Positions 55,995 through 62,593 of a DNA stretch of 64,000 nt are shown here, piece by piece. Position 1 is the first letter of the stretch. Every line of letters begins with the position of its first letter. The notes below the pieces were generated by a model. That model was not told where the DNA came from. It was given only the letters and a program-made list of their open reading frames with translations, and ran no database searches. The stretch is from Alphaproteobacteria bacterium. Its GTDB lineage: Bacteria; Pseudomonadota; Alphaproteobacteria; JANQMY01. Made by a program: the position numbers and the translations under genes. Location of the stretch: the NCBI GenBank assembly GCA_028289425.1, contig JANQPL010000016.1:62001-126000 (forward strand). The letters are read 5' to 3'.

Positions 55995-56963
55995 ATGTCC
56001 GAACCTCAAATTCTTGTTGCCGATATTGGGGGAACCCACGCGCGCTTTGCGCTTGCGCCTGAAGACGGCCGACCCGGCGAGCCGTCGGTGTGGCTCACCG
56101 CCATGTATGAAAGTTTGGGCGCGGCGCTTGCGGATTTTGTCTCGCGTCATCCCGGTGTTTCAATCACGGCAGCCGCCGTCTGCGCGGCCGGGCCTGTGAT
56201 CGACAATCAGATCCATATGACCAATTGTCCGTGGACGGTCAAACGGGACGAAATCGCGGATATTCTTGGGACGGAACAGGTCTTTCTGTTGAACGATTTT
56301 GCAGCCATTGCGGTGGCACTGCCCGGGGTGACCGGTGACGACCTGACGCCGTTGGGGGCGCCCGATGCCACTATGGGGCCGGGACCCAAAGTGGTGCTGG
56401 GGCCGGGCACCGGATTGGGCGTGGCGGCCCTGGTACCGGATGGCAAGGGCGGCTGGATCCCGGTCTCCGGCGAAGGCGGCCATGTGGACCTTGCGCCGGC
56501 AAGTAACCGCGAGATCTCCATCATCTACCAGCTTGCACAGGAATTCGGCCATGTATCGCCGGAACGGGTGGTGTCGGGCCCCGGGCTTGAGACGCTTTAT
56601 GCGGCGCTGTCGGCCCTTGATGGCCAAACACGCGATTCGCGCCCCAGCGCCGTCGACATTGTTGGCGCGGCGCGCCGCGGCACCGACCCGATGGCTCTGG
56701 AGGCGGTGCAGTTGTTCACCGGCTGGCTTGGGGCGCTTGCGGGCGATCTAGCCCTCACGTTTGGTGCCACCGGAGGGGTTTACATCGCGGGCGGCATTGT
56801 TCCTCAGTGGGGGGATCTTTTCGATGCTACTCTGTTCCGCCGCCGCTTCGAGCTCAAAGGCCGGTTCGATAAATATCTGGCGCCCATGCCCACATATCTC
56901 ATCACGGCCAAAGATGTGGCTCTGCGGGGGCTCGCGACGGTTGCCTTTCGTCGACAAAATTAG
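55995..56963 (+). CDS. glk: Glucokinase
   Basis: Phosphorylates glucose with ATP. The 322-residue protein belongs to the bacterial Glk family (not ROK). It shows VADIGGTHARFALAPEDG for phosphate binding, VFLLNDFAAIAVALPGV for the sugar site, VVLGPGTGLGVAALVPDG and GEGGHVDLAP. It is the last gene of the trehalose cluster. Glucose released by the GH15 enzyme would be recaptured here as glucose-6-phosphate. Confidence 0.95.
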   Translation: MSEPQILVADIGGTHARFALAPEDGRPGEPSVWLTAMYESLGAALADFVSRHPGVSITAAAVCAAGPVIDNQIHMTNCPWTVKRDEIADILGTEQVFLLNDFAAIAVALPGVTGDDLTPLGAPDATMGPGPKVVLGPGTGLGVAALVPDGKGGWIPVSGEGGHVDLAPASNREISIIYQLAQEFGHVSPERVVSGPGLETLYAALSALDGQTRDSRPSAVDIVGAARRGTDPMALEAVQLFTGWLGALAGDLALTFGATGGVYIAGGIVPQWGDLFDATLFRRRFELKGRFDKYLAPMPTYLITAKDVALRGLATVAFRRQN

Positions 56964-57365
56964 TCGCCCAATCGCTCACCAAATAGTTTTTTCTGTGGTT
57001 GGCAAAAGTAAGAACCCTCTAGCTTGTCATTTCCGATTTGAAATCGCGTAAAAAGTGACTTCTAGAGCTCAATTAACCATAGGTTTGGATTTTCCATTTG
57101 AAGACTTGAATTGCGATTATGTATTCCCAGCTAAGAGACCTACAAAGGTGCCTACGCACGCTGAAGTAGCTTGTCGTTTACTTTGTCAAGTTGGCAGGAC
57201 AGGTATTTGTGCAGGATTATCTGCATTGCTTGTCTCCAGTTTGCCTTCGGCTTACGCCAGAGGCGGATGACTGTTATGACAGTATAAACGATAACGTACG
57301 TATGTGGTGTGGACGTCGCCAAAATGGACATCGATGTCCCTAGTCGTTGAATGGGGAAGTAAAGC
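56964..57365. other. Non-coding, palindrome-rich leader upstream of the reverse transcriptase
   Basis: About 400 bp that is AT-richer than the neighbouring glk gene and has no credible protein gene. Small inverted repeats are frequent: CGATTT-G-AAATCG (57034-57046), TGCAG-GATTAT-CTGCA (57210-57225) inside a GACAGG/CTTGTC stem (57198-57234), ACTGT-TATG-ACAGT (57270-57283), ACGTACGT (57294-57301) and the 14-bp palindrome GGACATCGATGTCC (57326-57339). A weak promoter-like pair, TTGAAG and TGTATT spaced by 16 bases, lies near 57100-57125. Confidence 0.6.
57126..57365 (+). ncRNA. Candidate structured RNA preceding the reverse transcriptase
   Basis: A proposed transcript that would start shortly after the TGTATT element and run to the TTG start of the reverse transcriptase, about 240 bases. 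It would contain three well-formed stem-loops: 57198-57234, 57270-57283 and 57326-57339. Several solitary bacterial reverse transcriptases use an RNA encoded in this position as template or cofactor. No sequence match to a known RNA family was recognised; the boundaries and existence are inferred. Confidence 0.35.
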
Positions 57366-58919
57366 TTGAGCAAAGCCACTTGCGATTTTGCTTCCCCTAA
57401 CACCGATCCAGAGAATTCGATTGACTATTGGGAACCCTCCGTTCGGGACCTGAAGACCTATAGCCACTTCGACGCTGTCCTTCCAATTGATAAAATAAAG
57501 AAACTTGTTAGGGACCCGAAAGCTGTCTCACGACATTCATTCCGGCCCCTTCTTCAATTTGAAAAAAGATGGAGACGAGCACCAAAGAACGGCAAAGCAC
57601 GTCCCCCAAAAGTGAGGCCAATATCTTATGCGTGTCGAAAGGACGCTTACATATACAAGCATTATCGAGACTTATTGTCCCGACGATATGAAAGGAAATT
57701 GGCAGCTGCGAATTTGGGAGACGTAGTGCTGGCCTATCGCCGAATTCCGTCCGGAAAAACAGGTCGCTCAAACAAATCTAATATTCATTTCGCAAGAGAC
57801 GCGTTCGATGCGATTAATTCGGCCGGAAAATGTTGCGCGGTTGCAATTGACATCTCTGATTACTTCGGTTCGATCAATCACGAGAAGCTTAAGGGTTGTT
57901 GGGCTGAGCTAATTGGTCAAAGTCGGCTACCGCCAGACCATTATGCCGTATTTCGCTCCGTAACTCAGTATCGTTACGCAAATTTGGATGAGGTCCTTTT
58001 GGCACTAGGCTACTCGGAAATTGACAACTCCGGTGCGAAAAGATTCTCGATCCGTCCAAAAGAAATTCCGATTCAACTTTGCACGCCGGAGAACTATCGA
58101 ACTCATATCGTCGACCGAGGCTTGGTTCGCAAACATTCAAAGAGATCCGGTATTCCCCAAGGTACCCCAATATCCGACCTTCTGTCGAATTTGTTTCTAT
58201 TTGAGTTCGATCGAAAAATGCGCGACTACGCAAAAAATCGCAATGGTTATTATTTTCGGTATTCAGACGACATATTAATAATACTGCCCGGCGACGGTCG
58301 AGCCGGCAGTGGAGCGTTGCGAACAGTCTGTCGAGAGATACGCCTCGCGGGGGAAGAGCTGCAGATCAAACCAGAGAAAACGGACATCGTTTGTTTTCTG
58401 GGGAGAAGCGGTAGTCGCAGGTGCTACTCAATCGGACATTCGCGTGATCAGACTAGACGGGGTAGAAATTCACCAAACGAGGGGCTGTCGTACTTGGGGT
58501 TCAGATATGATGGAAAGCGCGTGTATTTACGGAACAGTACCATCACTAATCTGCGCGGAAAAATCGCTCGAGCATGCAAAGCGGCTGCTTTTCGCCACGT
58601 CCGGCGTCATCAAGAAAAGAACTTGGTTTGGTTGTTGGCGAACCGACCGTCAAACCAGCTTAAGCAAGAATTCATGAATGTTGAAGATTTCGATGAAGTG
58701 GTTAGCGAATCTCTGTTGAGTGGCGAAACGCCATTCAAGCACATGACATTTTGGAGCTACGTGAAAAGAGCCCGGAAGGTTTTTGGCGAGCGTGGCGGAC
58801 ACATGATGAAGCAGCTCGCAGGGATCGAAGACACTATTGAGACGACTTTTAAAAAGGAAATCCAAAAAAAGTATAAGAACGCAAAACGAAAGAAACACCG
58901 CACAACAGCGTTTAGGTGA
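57366..58919 (+). CDS. Solitary reverse transcriptase, likely defence-associated (UG/DRT-like)
   Basis: A 517-residue reverse transcriptase. Finger motifs include RPISYACRKDAYIYKHYRDL (84-103). Motif A is AVAIDISDYFGSI with Asp162, motif B is GIPQGTPISDLLSNLF (262-277), and motif C is YFRYSDDILIIL with Asp301/Asp302. Motif D is LQIKPEKTD, and motif E/thumb is LSYLGFRYDGKRVYLRNSTI. The C-terminal block TFWSYVKRARKVFG and a Lys/Arg-rich tail follow. No maturase, HNH, integrase or retron-type motif is seen. The start is a TTG with GGGGAAG upstream; no ATG is available before the core. The codons are AT-richer than its neighbours (many AGA, CGA, ATA), suggesting acquisition by transfer. The subgroup cannot be fixed by eye. 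Confidence 0.88.
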   Translation: MSKATCDFASPNTDPENSIDYWEPSVRDLKTYSHFDAVLPIDKIKKLVRDPKAVSRHSFRPLLQFEKRWRRAPKNGKARPPKVRPISYACRKDAYIYKHYRDLLSRRYERKLAAANLGDVVLAYRRIPSGKTGRSNKSNIHFARDAFDAINSAGKCCAVAIDISDYFGSINHEKLKGCWAELIGQSRLPPDHYAVFRSVTQYRYANLDEVLLALGYSEIDNSGAKRFSIRPKEIPIQLCTPENYRTHIVDRGLVRKHSKRSGIPQGTPISDLLSNLFLFEFDRKMRDYAKNRNGYYFRYSDDILIILPGDGRAGSGALRTVCREIRLAGEELQIKPEKTDIVCFLGRSGSRRCYSIGHSRDQTRRGRNSPNEGLSYLGFRYDGKRVYLRNSTITNLRGKIARACKAAAFRHVRRHQEKNLVWLLANRPSNQLKQEFMNVEDFDEVVSESLLSGETPFKHMTFWSYVKRARKVFGERGGHMMKQLAGIEDTIETTFKKEIQKKYKNAKRKKHRTTAFR

Positions 58920-59015
58920 TTTCCAGATTCTCTAGAATATCGTTGCATCAAAGAAATAGTCTATGCGTCCACTGACGATTTTGTTTGATGTGACGAACTG
59001 AGGTGCCGATAGTTG

Positions 59016-59423
59016 CTAGAAGAAGTCTTCCGGCTCGAATTCGTCGAAGCTTGGGGGCTGGTCTGTAATCTCGTGCCACGGCGCTTTGGAACCCGCAAAG
59101 ATCTGAACCTGCGGGGCGATCCCCGGGTCGTCGTCGAAAGTGCCGGCGGGTATGCACACATAGTCGTCGTCCGCGTCCGACACCGGAAGGTTGGCACCGC
59201 AGATCTTGCAGAAGGCGCGAAAATTACCGGGCGACGATTCATACCGCGTGATCTCAGCGTCCCCCCTCGTCCATCGAAATTGGCCGCGTTTAATGTGAGC
59301 AAACGTGCCGTAGGATGATCCGCTTGCTTTCCGGCACATAGAGCAATGGCACAGATTCATAATTTCCGGCGCTTGCGCTAACTCAAAGGCGACCGCGCCG
59401 CATAGGCAACTTCCTCTAATCAT
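59016..59423 (-). CDS. GFA family (glutathione-dependent formaldehyde-activating enzyme-like) protein
   Basis: A 135-residue zinc protein of the GFA/CENP-V fold. The metal-binding cysteines are in GSCLCGAVAFEL, NLCHCSMCRKASGSSYGTFA and FRAFCKICGANLPV. The ATG at 59423 has AGAGG eight bases upstream. Despite the family name, most members have no proven formaldehyde activity. It lies on the opposite strand to the reverse transcriptase and marks the return to GC-rich chromosomal sequence. Confidence 0.88.
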   Translation of the reverse strand: MIRGSCLCGAVAFELAQAPEIMNLCHCSMCRKASGSSYGTFAHIKRGQFRWTRGDAEITRYESSPGNFRAFCKICGANLPVSDADDDYVCIPAGTFDDDPGIAPQVQIFAGSKAPWHEITDQPPSFDEFEPEDFF

Positions 59424-59451
59424 CCCAACGCCTCTCTCAGAAGCCACACAT

Positions 59452-60714
59452 TTATTTGATCGGTTCTACAATGGGTGCCGGTTCCGAAATGATCTCCGGT
59501 TCGATGATCGGCTCGGTCATCGGGGCGGCCTCGGCTTCAAGAGCTGGCGCAGCTTCTATGACCGTGTTGGGAGTGACCGCAACTTGCTCCGGCGCGATGT
59601 GGTAAATCGCGTAAGGGCCGCGCTCGCGCATGGTCGCTTCGTCGGCGGGCTGGGCGAATTGGTCAATCAAATCGGTCAAGCGGCTGTCTGTAAACCAAAT
59701 GGCGCCGGAGGTATCGACGGTCACGCTATCTGCCCAATCCACGTTTGGATCAGCGGTCAGTGTGCTGAGCGTTCCGTCAGGGGCTAAGGCGGCAAGTCCG
59801 CCATTTTCCACATCGGTCAAGATCACCGTGTTGTCCGGCAGCAACTCAATGCCGTCACTCAACGGTTTGTTGCCGATAAATTCAATCTGCACGTCTAAAT
59901 CCGCATCCGTAAGGCTCGCATCGAGAAGTGCTGCGGTGGGGATGCGATAGACGCTGTCATGTGACATGGTGGCGTAATAAAGCCACGCCCCGTCCTGGGT
60001 CAACGCAATGCCGTCAACGCCTACAACGAAAGTGAGCAGACCGAAGGCCAGCCGGTACCAATCTCCATTGGTTTTGCGCATGACCCAGTCCTGTGCACTA
60101 ACCGAGGGATGTCCCCTGAGCACTGTTCGTGCCGATTGGCTATCCACATCGAACACAATCAGATTGGCTTCCGTGAATTTGAATAGACCAGTATCCGCCA
60201 GGAAGACCGTCTTGCCGTTGGGGGACACGCGCATGTCCTGGGCAAAACCGGCCTCGCCGTCGGCAAATTTGTGCTCGATGAGCAATTCGCCACTGTCCCG
60301 GTCAATCGCCAGCAATTCGGTGCGGCGCCCGTCCAAGGCGCCGGGCTTGATCACCCAGAGCCGCCCCTGACCGTCGGCCGTAATGCCCATGGCGCCATGG
60401 AATTTGACCTGCATCTCTTTGTCGGGGAACGGCACGCCTTTGCCGTCTACCCATTCGAACACGGTTGCATCTACGAATCTCTCGGGCCGGTGCAGCATAT
60501 GATAGGTGTAGAAAATCCTTCCGTCGGGTGATGCTGCCACCATGCCGGGCGGGAAGGGCAATTGAATGGGCGCGCTGATGCGGTCGTCCGGCACGGTCGG
60601 TGCTGTGCTCACATTGGGATATGGCTCACCGCCGCCATACATTAGCTTGAGGACAAGATAAGTACCTCCGACTAGCGCCACCAAAAGCACCAATGTGCGG
60701 CCGATCCATTTCAT
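59452..60714 (-). CDS. Membrane-anchored beta-propeller of the major royal jelly (yellow) family
   Basis: A 420-residue protein with an N-terminal anchor (IGRTLVLLVALVGGTYLVLK) and an outside beta-propeller. MRJP-type blocks are MGITADGQGRLWVIKPGALD, GVDGIALTQDGAWLYYATMS, SVYRIPTAALLD and NVDWADSVTVDTSGAIWFTD. The C-terminal 50 residues are a Pro/Glu/Ile repeat-like tail (EPIIEPEIISEPAPIVEPIK). Bacterial members are uncharacterised or act as lactonase-like enzymes. SMP-30-type propellers are a less likely alternative. Confidence 0.78.
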   Translation of the reverse strand: MKWIGRTLVLLVALVGGTYLVLKLMYGGGEPYPNVSTAPTVPDDRISAPIQLPFPPGMVAASPDGRIFYTYHMLHRPERFVDATVFEWVDGKGVPFPDKEMQVKFHGAMGITADGQGRLWVIKPGALDGRRTELLAIDRDSGELLIEHKFADGEAGFAQDMRVSPNGKTVFLADTGLFKFTEANLIVFDVDSQSARTVLRGHPSVSAQDWVMRKTNGDWYRLAFGLLTFVVGVDGIALTQDGAWLYYATMSHDSVYRIPTAALLDASLTDADLDVQIEFIGNKPLSDGIELLPDNTVILTDVENGGLAALAPDGTLSTLTADPNVDWADSVTVDTSGAIWFTDSRLTDLIDQFAQPADEATMRERGPYAIYHIAPEQVAVTPNTVIEAAPALEAEAAPMTEPIIEPEIISEPAPIVEPIK

Positions 60715-60841
60715 GTGTGTCCCCCAACAAGCTACTCTTACCGGTAAATGCCCGATCCAAGCAGACTATGCCTGCCGAGGAAAAGTGCTGCAATCAAAGA
60801 TAGGTGAGGGATTATGCCTGTGATGGGGCATCCCATTTGTG

Positions 60842-62593
60842 TTAGTCGCCGAGCGCTACGCCTTCCCGGCGGGGGTCGGCGCCACCGTCAAGCGTGCCGT
60901 CCGGCAGGATGCGAATGCCGTGCAATCCACTGTTCAGAGGGCGGACTTTCACCTCATGGCCTAAGCGTTCAAGTTCCGGCGCAAGATCCACCAGGGTGGA
61001 CCCTTCTTCCAGTTCCAACAAGCCGTTGCGGTTCACGTGATGGGGGAGGGAAACGGCAGACTGCATATCAAGTTGCCAATCCATCAGCCCCACCAGTGTG
61101 TTGGCCACATAGGCGATGATACGGCTGCCGCCGGGGGAGCCCACAAGCGCGTAGAGCTTTCCCTCATCATCGAAGATGAGGGTAGGCGACATGGAACTGC
61201 GGGGGCGCTTGCCGCCATCGGGCGCATTTGCCACTTGCCTGCCATCGATCACCGGCTGCCGTGAAAAGTCCGTTAGCTGATTGTTGAGGATGAACCCGCC
61301 GGCGATCAAATTGCTGCCGAACACAAACTCCACCGTCGTGGTCATGGACACTGCATTGCCGTCCCCGTCCACAACACTGAAATGGCTGGTGGATGGCGCT
61401 TCGCGGGAAATCTGTGGGCTAAGATTGGTGTCTTTCTTAAGCGGCGTGCCCGGCTTGGCAATACCCATGGACCGGCGCGTGTCGATCAGTCGAGCCCGCT
61501 CCGCCAGATAGGTTTTGTCCAGCAGGGCATCGAGCGGAATGTCCACAAAGTCGCTGTCCGCCAGATACATGGCACGATCCGCGTAGGCGAGGCGGGAGGC
61601 CTCCGATACCAAATGCACGGCTTCAGTGGACGAAGGCTTCAGCGATGCCATATCAAACCCTTCCAGAAGCGATAGGATTTGCATCACCGTCGTGCCGCCG
61701 GACGACGGTGGCGGCATGCCGCACACCGTCCAGGTGCGATAGGGCCTGCAGATCGCCTCGCGGATCTTGGGCTGATATGCCGCCAAATCCGCCAGCGTCA
61801 TGGCGCCGGGATTGATCGGGGCGTTTTGCACCGCCTGGATAATCTGGTCGGCGATGACGCCCTTGTAAAACCCCTCAGGCCCCTGGGCCGCGATGATCCG
61901 TAATGACGATGCGAGTTCCGGATTCTTCAGCAAATGTCCTGCCGGAAGCGGCGTCCCACCGGCGTCGAAGTATAACGCCTGTCCGGCCGGGCTTTCATTG
62001 AAGGCCGGCGTCAGCGTGATCATCCGATGAAGCCGCGGCGATACTTCAAATCCGTTTTCGGACAGAAGGATCGCCGGCTCAAAAAGTTCCGCCCAAGGCA
62101 AACGCCCATGCTCCTGATGGGCCTGCCACAACATGGCGATGGCGCCGGGCACCCCGACCGATCGGCCACTTTTGACGGCGGTCAGAAAATCAAAAGGTTG
62201 GCCGTTGTCGTCCAGAAACAGTTCCGGCGTTGCCGCCGCCGGTGCCGTTTCCCGCCCGTCATAGGCAATCACTTTTTCCGTCTTGGGCGACCAATGCATG
62301 AGGAACGCGCCGCCGCCAATGCCGGACGATTGTGGTTCCACCAGGGTCAGGACGGCTTGGATCGCAATGGCGGCATCTACCGCCGACCCGCCCTTTTTGA
62401 GGATGTCGATGCCGGCTTGGCTTGCCAACGGATTGGCGGAACTGACCATTTGCGGCCCGTCGCCTTTCGGGGCGGCCGACGCCCCCTGAAACGGAACCCA
62501 ATCTGGAATACCGCGGCCGTTGCTGCAGGCGGTAATGGCAAAAGCAATGAGCAGCGCCGCCAAAAGCCGAATCGAACTGTTGAGTTTGGTCAT
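60842..62593 (-). CDS. ggt: Gamma-glutamyltransferase, lipoprotein form
   Basis: A 583-residue N-terminal nucleophile hydrolase that cleaves glutathione and other gamma-glutamyl compounds in the periplasm. The lipobox ITAC places the lipidated Cys at residue 23. Autocleavage should occur before the catalytic Thr in APSTSHFSVVDGDGNAVSMT. Other motifs are EPQSSGIGGGAFLMHW, GMPPPSSGGTTVMQIL and RPRSSMSPTLIF. The ATG at 62593 is chosen because the signal peptide starts there; the frame is open further upstream, into the divergent P1 peptidase gene. Confidence 0.93.
   Translation of the reverse strand: MTKLNSSIRLLAALLIAFAITACSNGRGIPDWVPFQGASAAPKGDGPQMVSSANPLASQAGIDILKKGGSAVDAAIAIQAVLTLVEPQSSGIGGGAFLMHWSPKTEKVIAYDGRETAPAAATPELFLDDNGQPFDFLTAVKSGRSVGVPGAIAMLWQAHQEHGRLPWAELFEPAILLSENGFEVSPRLHRMITLTPAFNESPAGQALYFDAGGTPLPAGHLLKNPELASSLRIIAAQGPEGFYKGVIADQIIQAVQNAPINPGAMTLADLAAYQPKIREAICRPYRTWTVCGMPPPSSGGTTVMQILSLLEGFDMASLKPSSTEAVHLVSEASRLAYADRAMYLADSDFVDIPLDALLDKTYLAERARLIDTRRSMGIAKPGTPLKKDTNLSPQISREAPSTSHFSVVDGDGNAVSMTTTVEFVFGSNLIAGGFILNNQLTDFSRQPVIDGRQVANAPDGGKRPRSSMSPTLIFDDEGKLYALVGSPGGSRIIAYVANTLVGLMDWQLDMQSAVSLPHHVNRNGLLELEEGSTLVDLAPELERLGHEVKVRPLNSGLHGIRILPDGTLDGGADPRREGVALGD

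Follow-up and report, generated by a model that had tools for sequence, protein, structure and literature searches.

A divergent DRT2-type reverse transcriptase locus with a structured upstream RNA and a predicted template for a concatemeric gene in an alphaproteobacterium

Introduction

The DRT2 (UG2) systems defend by way of a gene that is present only after reverse transcription (PMC11100668). Upon phage infection a concatemeric cDNA is made, primed from the 3' end of a non-coding RNA (ncRNA) that carries a 3' pseudoknot, and the resulting protein, Neo, is toxic. The published accounts, drawn on here in part (PMC12039810, PMC11100668), describe an ncRNA of ~280 nt upstream of the reverse transcriptase (RT) and a 120-nt template with ACA motifs at its borders; the first motif is itself part of the template. 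Junctions between cDNA repeats put a -35 element within 17 bp of a -10 element; the neo frame is antisense and stop-free, and its units are divisible by three. In the published set, as far as the parts of PMC12039810 considered here go, the conserved Neo sequence is largely forced by the promoter hexamers. In divergent DRT2 clades ncRNAs were found but Neo was not readily found, and a different way of working was left open in the portions of PMC11100668 drawn on.

DRT9 and DRT10, the latter equated with UG17 in the same literature, are likewise antiviral RTs that copy part of a neighbouring ncRNA repeatedly, but according to the parts of the reports used here their products are homopolymers or short tandem repeats, without an assembled gene (PMC12483538, PMC12632851).

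Described here is a locus within a stretch of 64,000 nucleotides (the window) of contig JANQPL010000016.1, from an alphaproteobacterial assembly. The preferred reading, held with a probability of roughly 0.86 on sequence comparison and analogy, is that of a DRT2-type phage-defence locus, in which a structured ncRNA (about 57147-57425) and its RT would turn the template at 57176-57295 into a neo concatemer. How closely does the locus resemble the described systems, and where does it depart from them?

The reverse transcriptase

57366-58919, plus strand: open reading frame of the DRT2-family RT, TTG start, 517 aa, YSDD

The predicted RT matches the PADLOC Drt2 profile with an E value of 2.3e-129, and the same protein is far weaker against other profiles (Drt9, E 2.1e-14; UG17, E 3.3e-23). 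Solved DRT2 structures are matched at E 3e-61 by the single sequence and at 1.1e-87 with a four-sequence profile. By these comparisons the RT is a member of the DRT2 (UG2) family, and a divergent one, since at 346 bits it does not attain the 390 bits of the NCBIfam Drt2 equivalog cut-off. With 517 aa and a YSDD motif it also differs from the RT of KpnDRT2 (Klebsiella pneumoniae), for which the published portions give 425 aa and YCDD.

Where translation begins is a separate question. The TTG at 57366 lies in an RNA hairpin, and no in-frame ATG, GTG or TTG follows it before the codon of the conserved W at 57429. From the sequence, the true start may be near 57420, at a non-standard ATT.

The upstream RNA

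57147-57425 (both ends approximate), plus strand: predicted DRT2-type ncRNA, placed by fold, covariance model and the length of the KpnDRT2 RNA
57326-57339, plus strand: small 3' hairpin (buttress-like), GGACA-UCGA-UGUCC, the third stem-loop of the preliminary description
57353-57399, plus strand: large 3' hairpin (tower-like), with covariation in the window's clade and an equivalent in 45 relatives

Folding and comparison with relatives predict a structured ncRNA directly upstream of the RT; its ends are inferred from the 281-nt KpnDRT2 RNA, as given in the part of PMC11100668 drawn on. A preliminary description, made from the letters alone, had singled out 57126-57365 as dense in palindromes and structured. 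This is borne out by a predicted fold of -85.7 kcal/mol (z -3.98), with none of 200 shuffles as low; a fuller 281-nt estimate of the RNA, 57145-57425, folds at -104.5 kcal/mol (z -5.06), again with 0/200 shuffles as low. Two of the three stem-loops proposed there stand: 57198-57234 is present in the sequence and formed in the predicted fold, and 57326-57339 recurs in relatives. The third, an inverted repeat at 57270-57283 (ACTGT-TATG-ACAGT), does exist in the sequence, but the predicted fold pairs its bases elsewhere and it is probably not a hairpin.

Covariation among relatives had been named beforehand as support for such an RNA, and it is found in both 3' hairpins. All four clade members (window, L012, L013 and L015) have the small hairpin, with a stem of 4-5 bp and a 4-nt loop, and all the stems are different (GGACA/TGTCC, TGGAT/ATCCA, GGGTG/CACCC and GGGC/GCCC); in each of the four it stands 3-5 nt ahead of the conserved TCGTTGAATG. 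The large hairpin shows compensatory changes. Within the window's clade (four sequences) 95.3% of cells are paired and both sides have changed in 5 of 16 pairs, and for the equivalent hairpin in 45 loci the figures are 86.1% and seven of seven pairs, a score matched by 0/500 shuffles and by no slid version. The KpnDRT2 RNA, in the published portions, likewise has a 3' scaffold of one small and one large hairpin.

For the 3' part of the RNA, 45 loci were used to build a covariance model, with the window, L012, L013, L015, the outgroup and mis-picked loci omitted. Its match in the window is weak (15.2 bits, E 0.078) and lies in the expected place, 57279-57431; no second match in the window is listed up to E 5. 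Close kin are matched at E 0.017 (L015), 0.14 (L012) and 0.29 (L013). A GGUGU/ACACC pairing, to be compared with the DRT2 3' pseudoknot, is seen in the 3' fold of the window and was not found in a by-eye look at the clade members. Rfam, searched at gathering thresholds over the whole window, yields only tRNA and small SRP RNA, none of them near the RT.

The borders that the preliminary description gave to the RNA have to be redrawn. It had the RNA end at the TTG; since in the predicted fold the large hairpin spans the annotated TTG at 57366, and since 57343-57405 is 89% identical to L012 over its 63 nt, that end comes too early, and the conserved RNA runs on to about 57425. The ncRNA therefore overlaps the annotated RT open reading frame, unlike that of KpnDRT2 as published in the portions used. 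At the other border a weak promoter-like site had been proposed. The sole sigma-70-like site in 56900-57450 is at 57191-57220 on the plus strand; it falls inside the template and does not exceed chance, since the single site found compares with 0.6 expected in shuffles.

The predicted template, junction promoter and antisense frame

57176-57295, plus strand: predicted RT template, 120 nt, GT at both ends, with the promoter elements in the arrangement shared by 65 of 90 loci
57176-57177, plus strand: jump motif copy 1, GT, the first bases of the template, register -8 from the complement of the -35
57296-57297, plus strand: jump motif copy 2, GT just past the template, identical to copy 1
57184-57189, minus strand: -35 element TTGACA of the junction promoter, TGTCAA on the plus strand
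57281-57286, minus strand: -10 element TATACT of the junction promoter, AGTATA on the plus strand
57176-57295, minus strand: predicted neo repeat unit of 40 codons, VIVYTVITVIRLWRKPKANWRQAMQIILHKYLSCQLDKVN, whose frame stays open from one repeat to the next
57234-57237, minus strand: ribosome-binding-site-like GGAG of neo, GGAGACAAGCAATG in the neo frame
57224-57226, minus strand: ATG predicted to start neo, 54 nt past the -10

The first GT sits 8 nt upstream of TGTCAA, and the second begins after 9 nt downstream of AGTATA. A -35 to -10 spacing of 17 bp (8+9 nt) thus arises only across a repeat junction of 57176-57295. When antisense copies of the 120-nt template are joined, one frame (frame 0) is free of stops and reads as 40-residue repeats, VIVYTVITVIRLWRKPKANWRQAMQIILHKYLSCQLDKVN. 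Much of this predicted Neo peptide is dictated by the promoter hexamers.

The likeness to KpnDRT2, as described in the parts of PMC12039810 and PMC11100668 considered, extends over the RT family, an ncRNA directly upstream, a 120-nt template, permuted TTGACA and TATA-type hexamers that make a 17-bp promoter only across junctions, and an antisense endless open reading frame in units divisible by three. There are also differences. No ACA pair flanks the promoter hexamers of the window, so that ACA-1 and ACA-2 of KpnDRT2 are missing; the window-type GT (or CT) is 8 nt from the -35, compared with 6 nt; and the predicted neo start is placed mid-unit, 54 nt past the -10, whereas the published distance in KpnDRT2 is 13 nt. 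Judged by sequence, then, the locus agrees with DRT2 in its RT, its ncRNA, its junction promoter and its antisense frame, and lacks the ACA trait.

A template or cofactor RNA had been suggested from the analogy of DRT2, DRT3 and DRT9, and the combination of a DRT2-family RT with a predicted DRT2-type template, junction promoter and antisense frame argues for that suggestion. The accompanying statement that no protein gene explains the region holds for ordinary genes only: the antisense strand is open over 57152-57403 and encodes the predicted Neo repeat. A 71-aa open reading frame at 57055-57270 has no match to any family in the profile searches.

Relatives and the proposed jump motif

Single-sequence searches for relatives in genome contigs and viral contigs found none. 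A four-sequence profile then gave 80 loci in genome contigs and one in viral contigs, and other loci came from further searches. The closest relatives, L012 and L013 (54% identity), are from Caulobacterales/Hyphomonadaceae metagenome bins. With L001, a second copy of the window's locus, left out, 77 of 92 loci have an exact TGTCAA that precedes the RT by 105-235 nt.

Several relatives are of interest in themselves. In L003/L006 (G360, an 8-Mb genome) the family RT is in two pieces with an internal TGA, a broken copy. L092, from an IMG/VR viral contig, is a DRT2 of the GT type whose unit measures 141 nt; it is close to L049, a Sulfitobacter chromosomal copy, and may be carried by a prophage. 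Acidobacteriota records hold the relatives L078 and L050; the 96-nt unit of L050 is the shortest selected, in phase and open, and L078 has no clear unit under the unit rule.

Units were delimited by rules that are motif scores only, blind to length and reading phase, with equal end dinucleotides rewarded. A first rule mis-chose the -10 in some loci (e.g. L017, L033, L074 and L030) and was replaced by a relaxed one, in which variants of the -35 are allowed. The latter was applied to 90 loci (L028 and L068 were skipped, their upstream sequence being too short) and gave 73 non-redundant units; it still mis-picks L030, L074, L072 and L017, and the counts below are without hand correction. At a score cut-off of 21, 49 of the 73 units are selected and 24 fall below, among them the ACA-type outgroup. 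A score of at least 21 is reached by 65 of 90 real upstream regions, by 0/1080 shuffled regions and by 0/1500 shuffles of the window's own region.

What takes the place of the ACA motifs? All 49 selected units have G or C followed by T at copy 1 and the identical dinucleotide at copy 2, GT/GT in 46 and CT/CT in three, although the selection favoured both features. As the rule rewarded equal dinucleotides, this 49/49 identity is partly built in and is not independent evidence. An ACA/ACA pair in that register is seen in none of the 49. To test the method, the ACA rule was also run on eight outgroup loci; four of them gave units of 117, 120, 129 and 120 nt, and the other four gave nothing. The ACA-type loci L085, L086, L089 and L091 (Vibrio, Aliivibrio, Marinobacterium and Psychromonas) share the -35/-10 layout of the window and have units of 117-129 nt, all multiples of three; they differ in their ACA motifs and in belonging to a sister clade of the GT/CT type.

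The tree behind this placement is a quick search on 90 RTs. In it the GT/CT type forms one clade of 79 rows (SH-aLRT 99), and an adjoining clade of eight outgroup rows (SH-aLRT 98) includes the four ACA-type loci. The ACA/ACA pair defines a KpnDRT2-like subgroup, not the RT family. Within the GT/CT type, CT stands at both ends in L052, L059, L063, L065, L073 and L081, which belong to a nested, Rhizobiales-rich RT clade. Since the CT rows share one nested clade of eight (SH-aLRT 98), the double switch from GT to CT was probably one event. The literature, taken as titles and abstract openings together with parts of PMC12596737 and PMC12632851, yielded no GT- or CT-type DRT2 ncRNA or Neo in Alphaproteobacteria; the clade may be partly described in the supplements of the DRT2 papers.

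Reading phase, and whether Neo is made

With the first rule, 52 of 60 non-redundant units are multiples of three, and an open antisense frame is found in 50 of the 60, an open sense frame in 22. For the 52 in-phase units, antisense frames 0, 1 and 2 are open in 50, 2 and 0, and the sense frames in 16, 10 and 3. The relaxed rule gives 46 multiples of three among the 49 units scoring at least 21, a result that is not built into the rule. Antisense frame 0 is open in every one of these 46, antisense frame 1 in two, frame 2 in one, and the sense frames in 15, 10 and 3. Over 89 aligned pairs the neo frame has the best similarity of the six frames (2.98 versus 2.27-2.58).

Could a DRT2-like ncRNA be copied and yet give no Neo protein, with the cDNA or an RNA-protein complex as effector and the open frame incidental? 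The 46 of 49 units in phase, every one of them open in the same antisense frame, speak against this, as does the placement of start signals: under the first rule a Shine-Dalgarno sequence with ATG (SD+ATG) is found in the neo frame of 33/50 units, in none for either of the other antisense frames, and in 0, 2 and 0 for the sense frames. The proposal does draw some strength from the codon positions of neo, which evolve almost evenly (1031/1025/1124 substitutions), so that protein-level constraint on neo appears weak. It is also favoured by a conserved Neo sequence that is largely forced by the promoter hexamers, as in the published set (PMC12039810, in the part used), and by a phase that is broken in three loci, two of them close relatives. 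On balance it is considered improbable.

Still less likely is a purely regulatory role, with the hairpins belonging to an ordinary leader or attenuator in the mRNA of the RT gene. The position of the region upstream of the open reading frame suits such a role, and the 3' hairpin could also affect translation because it covers the annotated TTG start, but a leader would not account for a junction promoter with a fixed spacing of 17 bp, for units that are multiples of three or for the antisense frame. In the DRT2-type reading, RT membership, RNA structure, template layout, the junction promoter and the open antisense frame are shown by comparison of sequences.

Loci out of phase

Three selected units are not multiples of three: 130 nt in L013, 125 nt in L015 and 142 nt in L023, with ends in the family's phase. 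L013 and L015 are two of the window's three closest relatives. These units sit at about L013:2301-2450, L015:2284-2440 and L023:2260-2400. In all three the first stop falls -1 to +11 nt from the ATG of the next unit. Are these constructs separate cistrons? With the middle shuffled, such a stop has a probability of 0.57 (L013), 0.44 (L015) or 0.21 (L023); as this null is not small, the discrete-cistron reading is not adopted as the main account. The three loci may be decayed, may be assembly errors or, on weak support, may encode discrete proteins.

A repeat that is out of phase does make an array of discrete proteins possible in some members, and a broader proposal can be framed, though it is put forward as speculative and rather doubtful. 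In the large, mostly alphaproteobacterial DRT2 clade an evolvable two-nucleotide jump code (GT/GT, with CT/CT in a Rhizobiales subclade) would replace ACA/ACA, and out-of-phase members may encode arrays of discrete, translationally coupled proteins of 42-50 residues, not one endless protein.

That the window's own system has decayed, its RNA a relic that is inactive in this genome, is hardly credible: the RT has no ATG start and its clade has out-of-phase members, but the RT open reading frame is intact over its 517 aa, YSDD included, and the window's own unit, likewise intact, keeps its phase, its open frame, its promoter and its Shine-Dalgarno sequence.

Genomic setting

The genus is represented in the comparison by one further genome, G123 (L093). 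There the glucokinase-side gene is followed, 92 nt on, by the gene that starts near 60845 in the window, and 56946-60844 is wholly absent. GC content is 0.44-0.50 over about 56950-59000, compared with 0.56-0.68 upstream. The absence from G123 and the drop in GC fit a mobile defence cargo. Besides the predicted ncRNA and the RT, the segment 56946-60844 encodes a GFA-like protein (59016-59447) and a protein of 420 aa (59452-60714).

Proposed mechanism and significance

How might the DRT2-type locus work? By analogy with KpnDRT2, the RT would bind the 3' hairpins of the ncRNA and copy the 120-nt template at 57176-57295. On reaching the 5' end of the template, the nascent cDNA, which would end in the complement of GT, could slip back to the second GT, which adjoins the template on its 3' side, and restart; the register of GT suggests that it is here that the cDNA would re-anneal. 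Repeated restarts would build a concatemer. Once double-stranded, each of its junctions would set TTGACA 17 bp from TATACT, and because every junction would form this promoter, the antisense strand could be transcribed and translated. The product, an endless protein built of 40-residue repeats, would arrest the infected cell. That the locus is expressed and reverse transcribed, that the cDNA jumps at GT, and that the product is toxic and gives defence are all expected here from what is described for known DRT2 systems.

If the GT/CT jump rule is true, a template in which both ends are changed together should keep its function, and one changed at one end alone should lose it. The finding that 46 of 49 GT/CT-type units show a Neo frame once a GT/CT jump motif is allowed suggests that this mechanism of gene assembly may be older and wider than the ACA-type systems.
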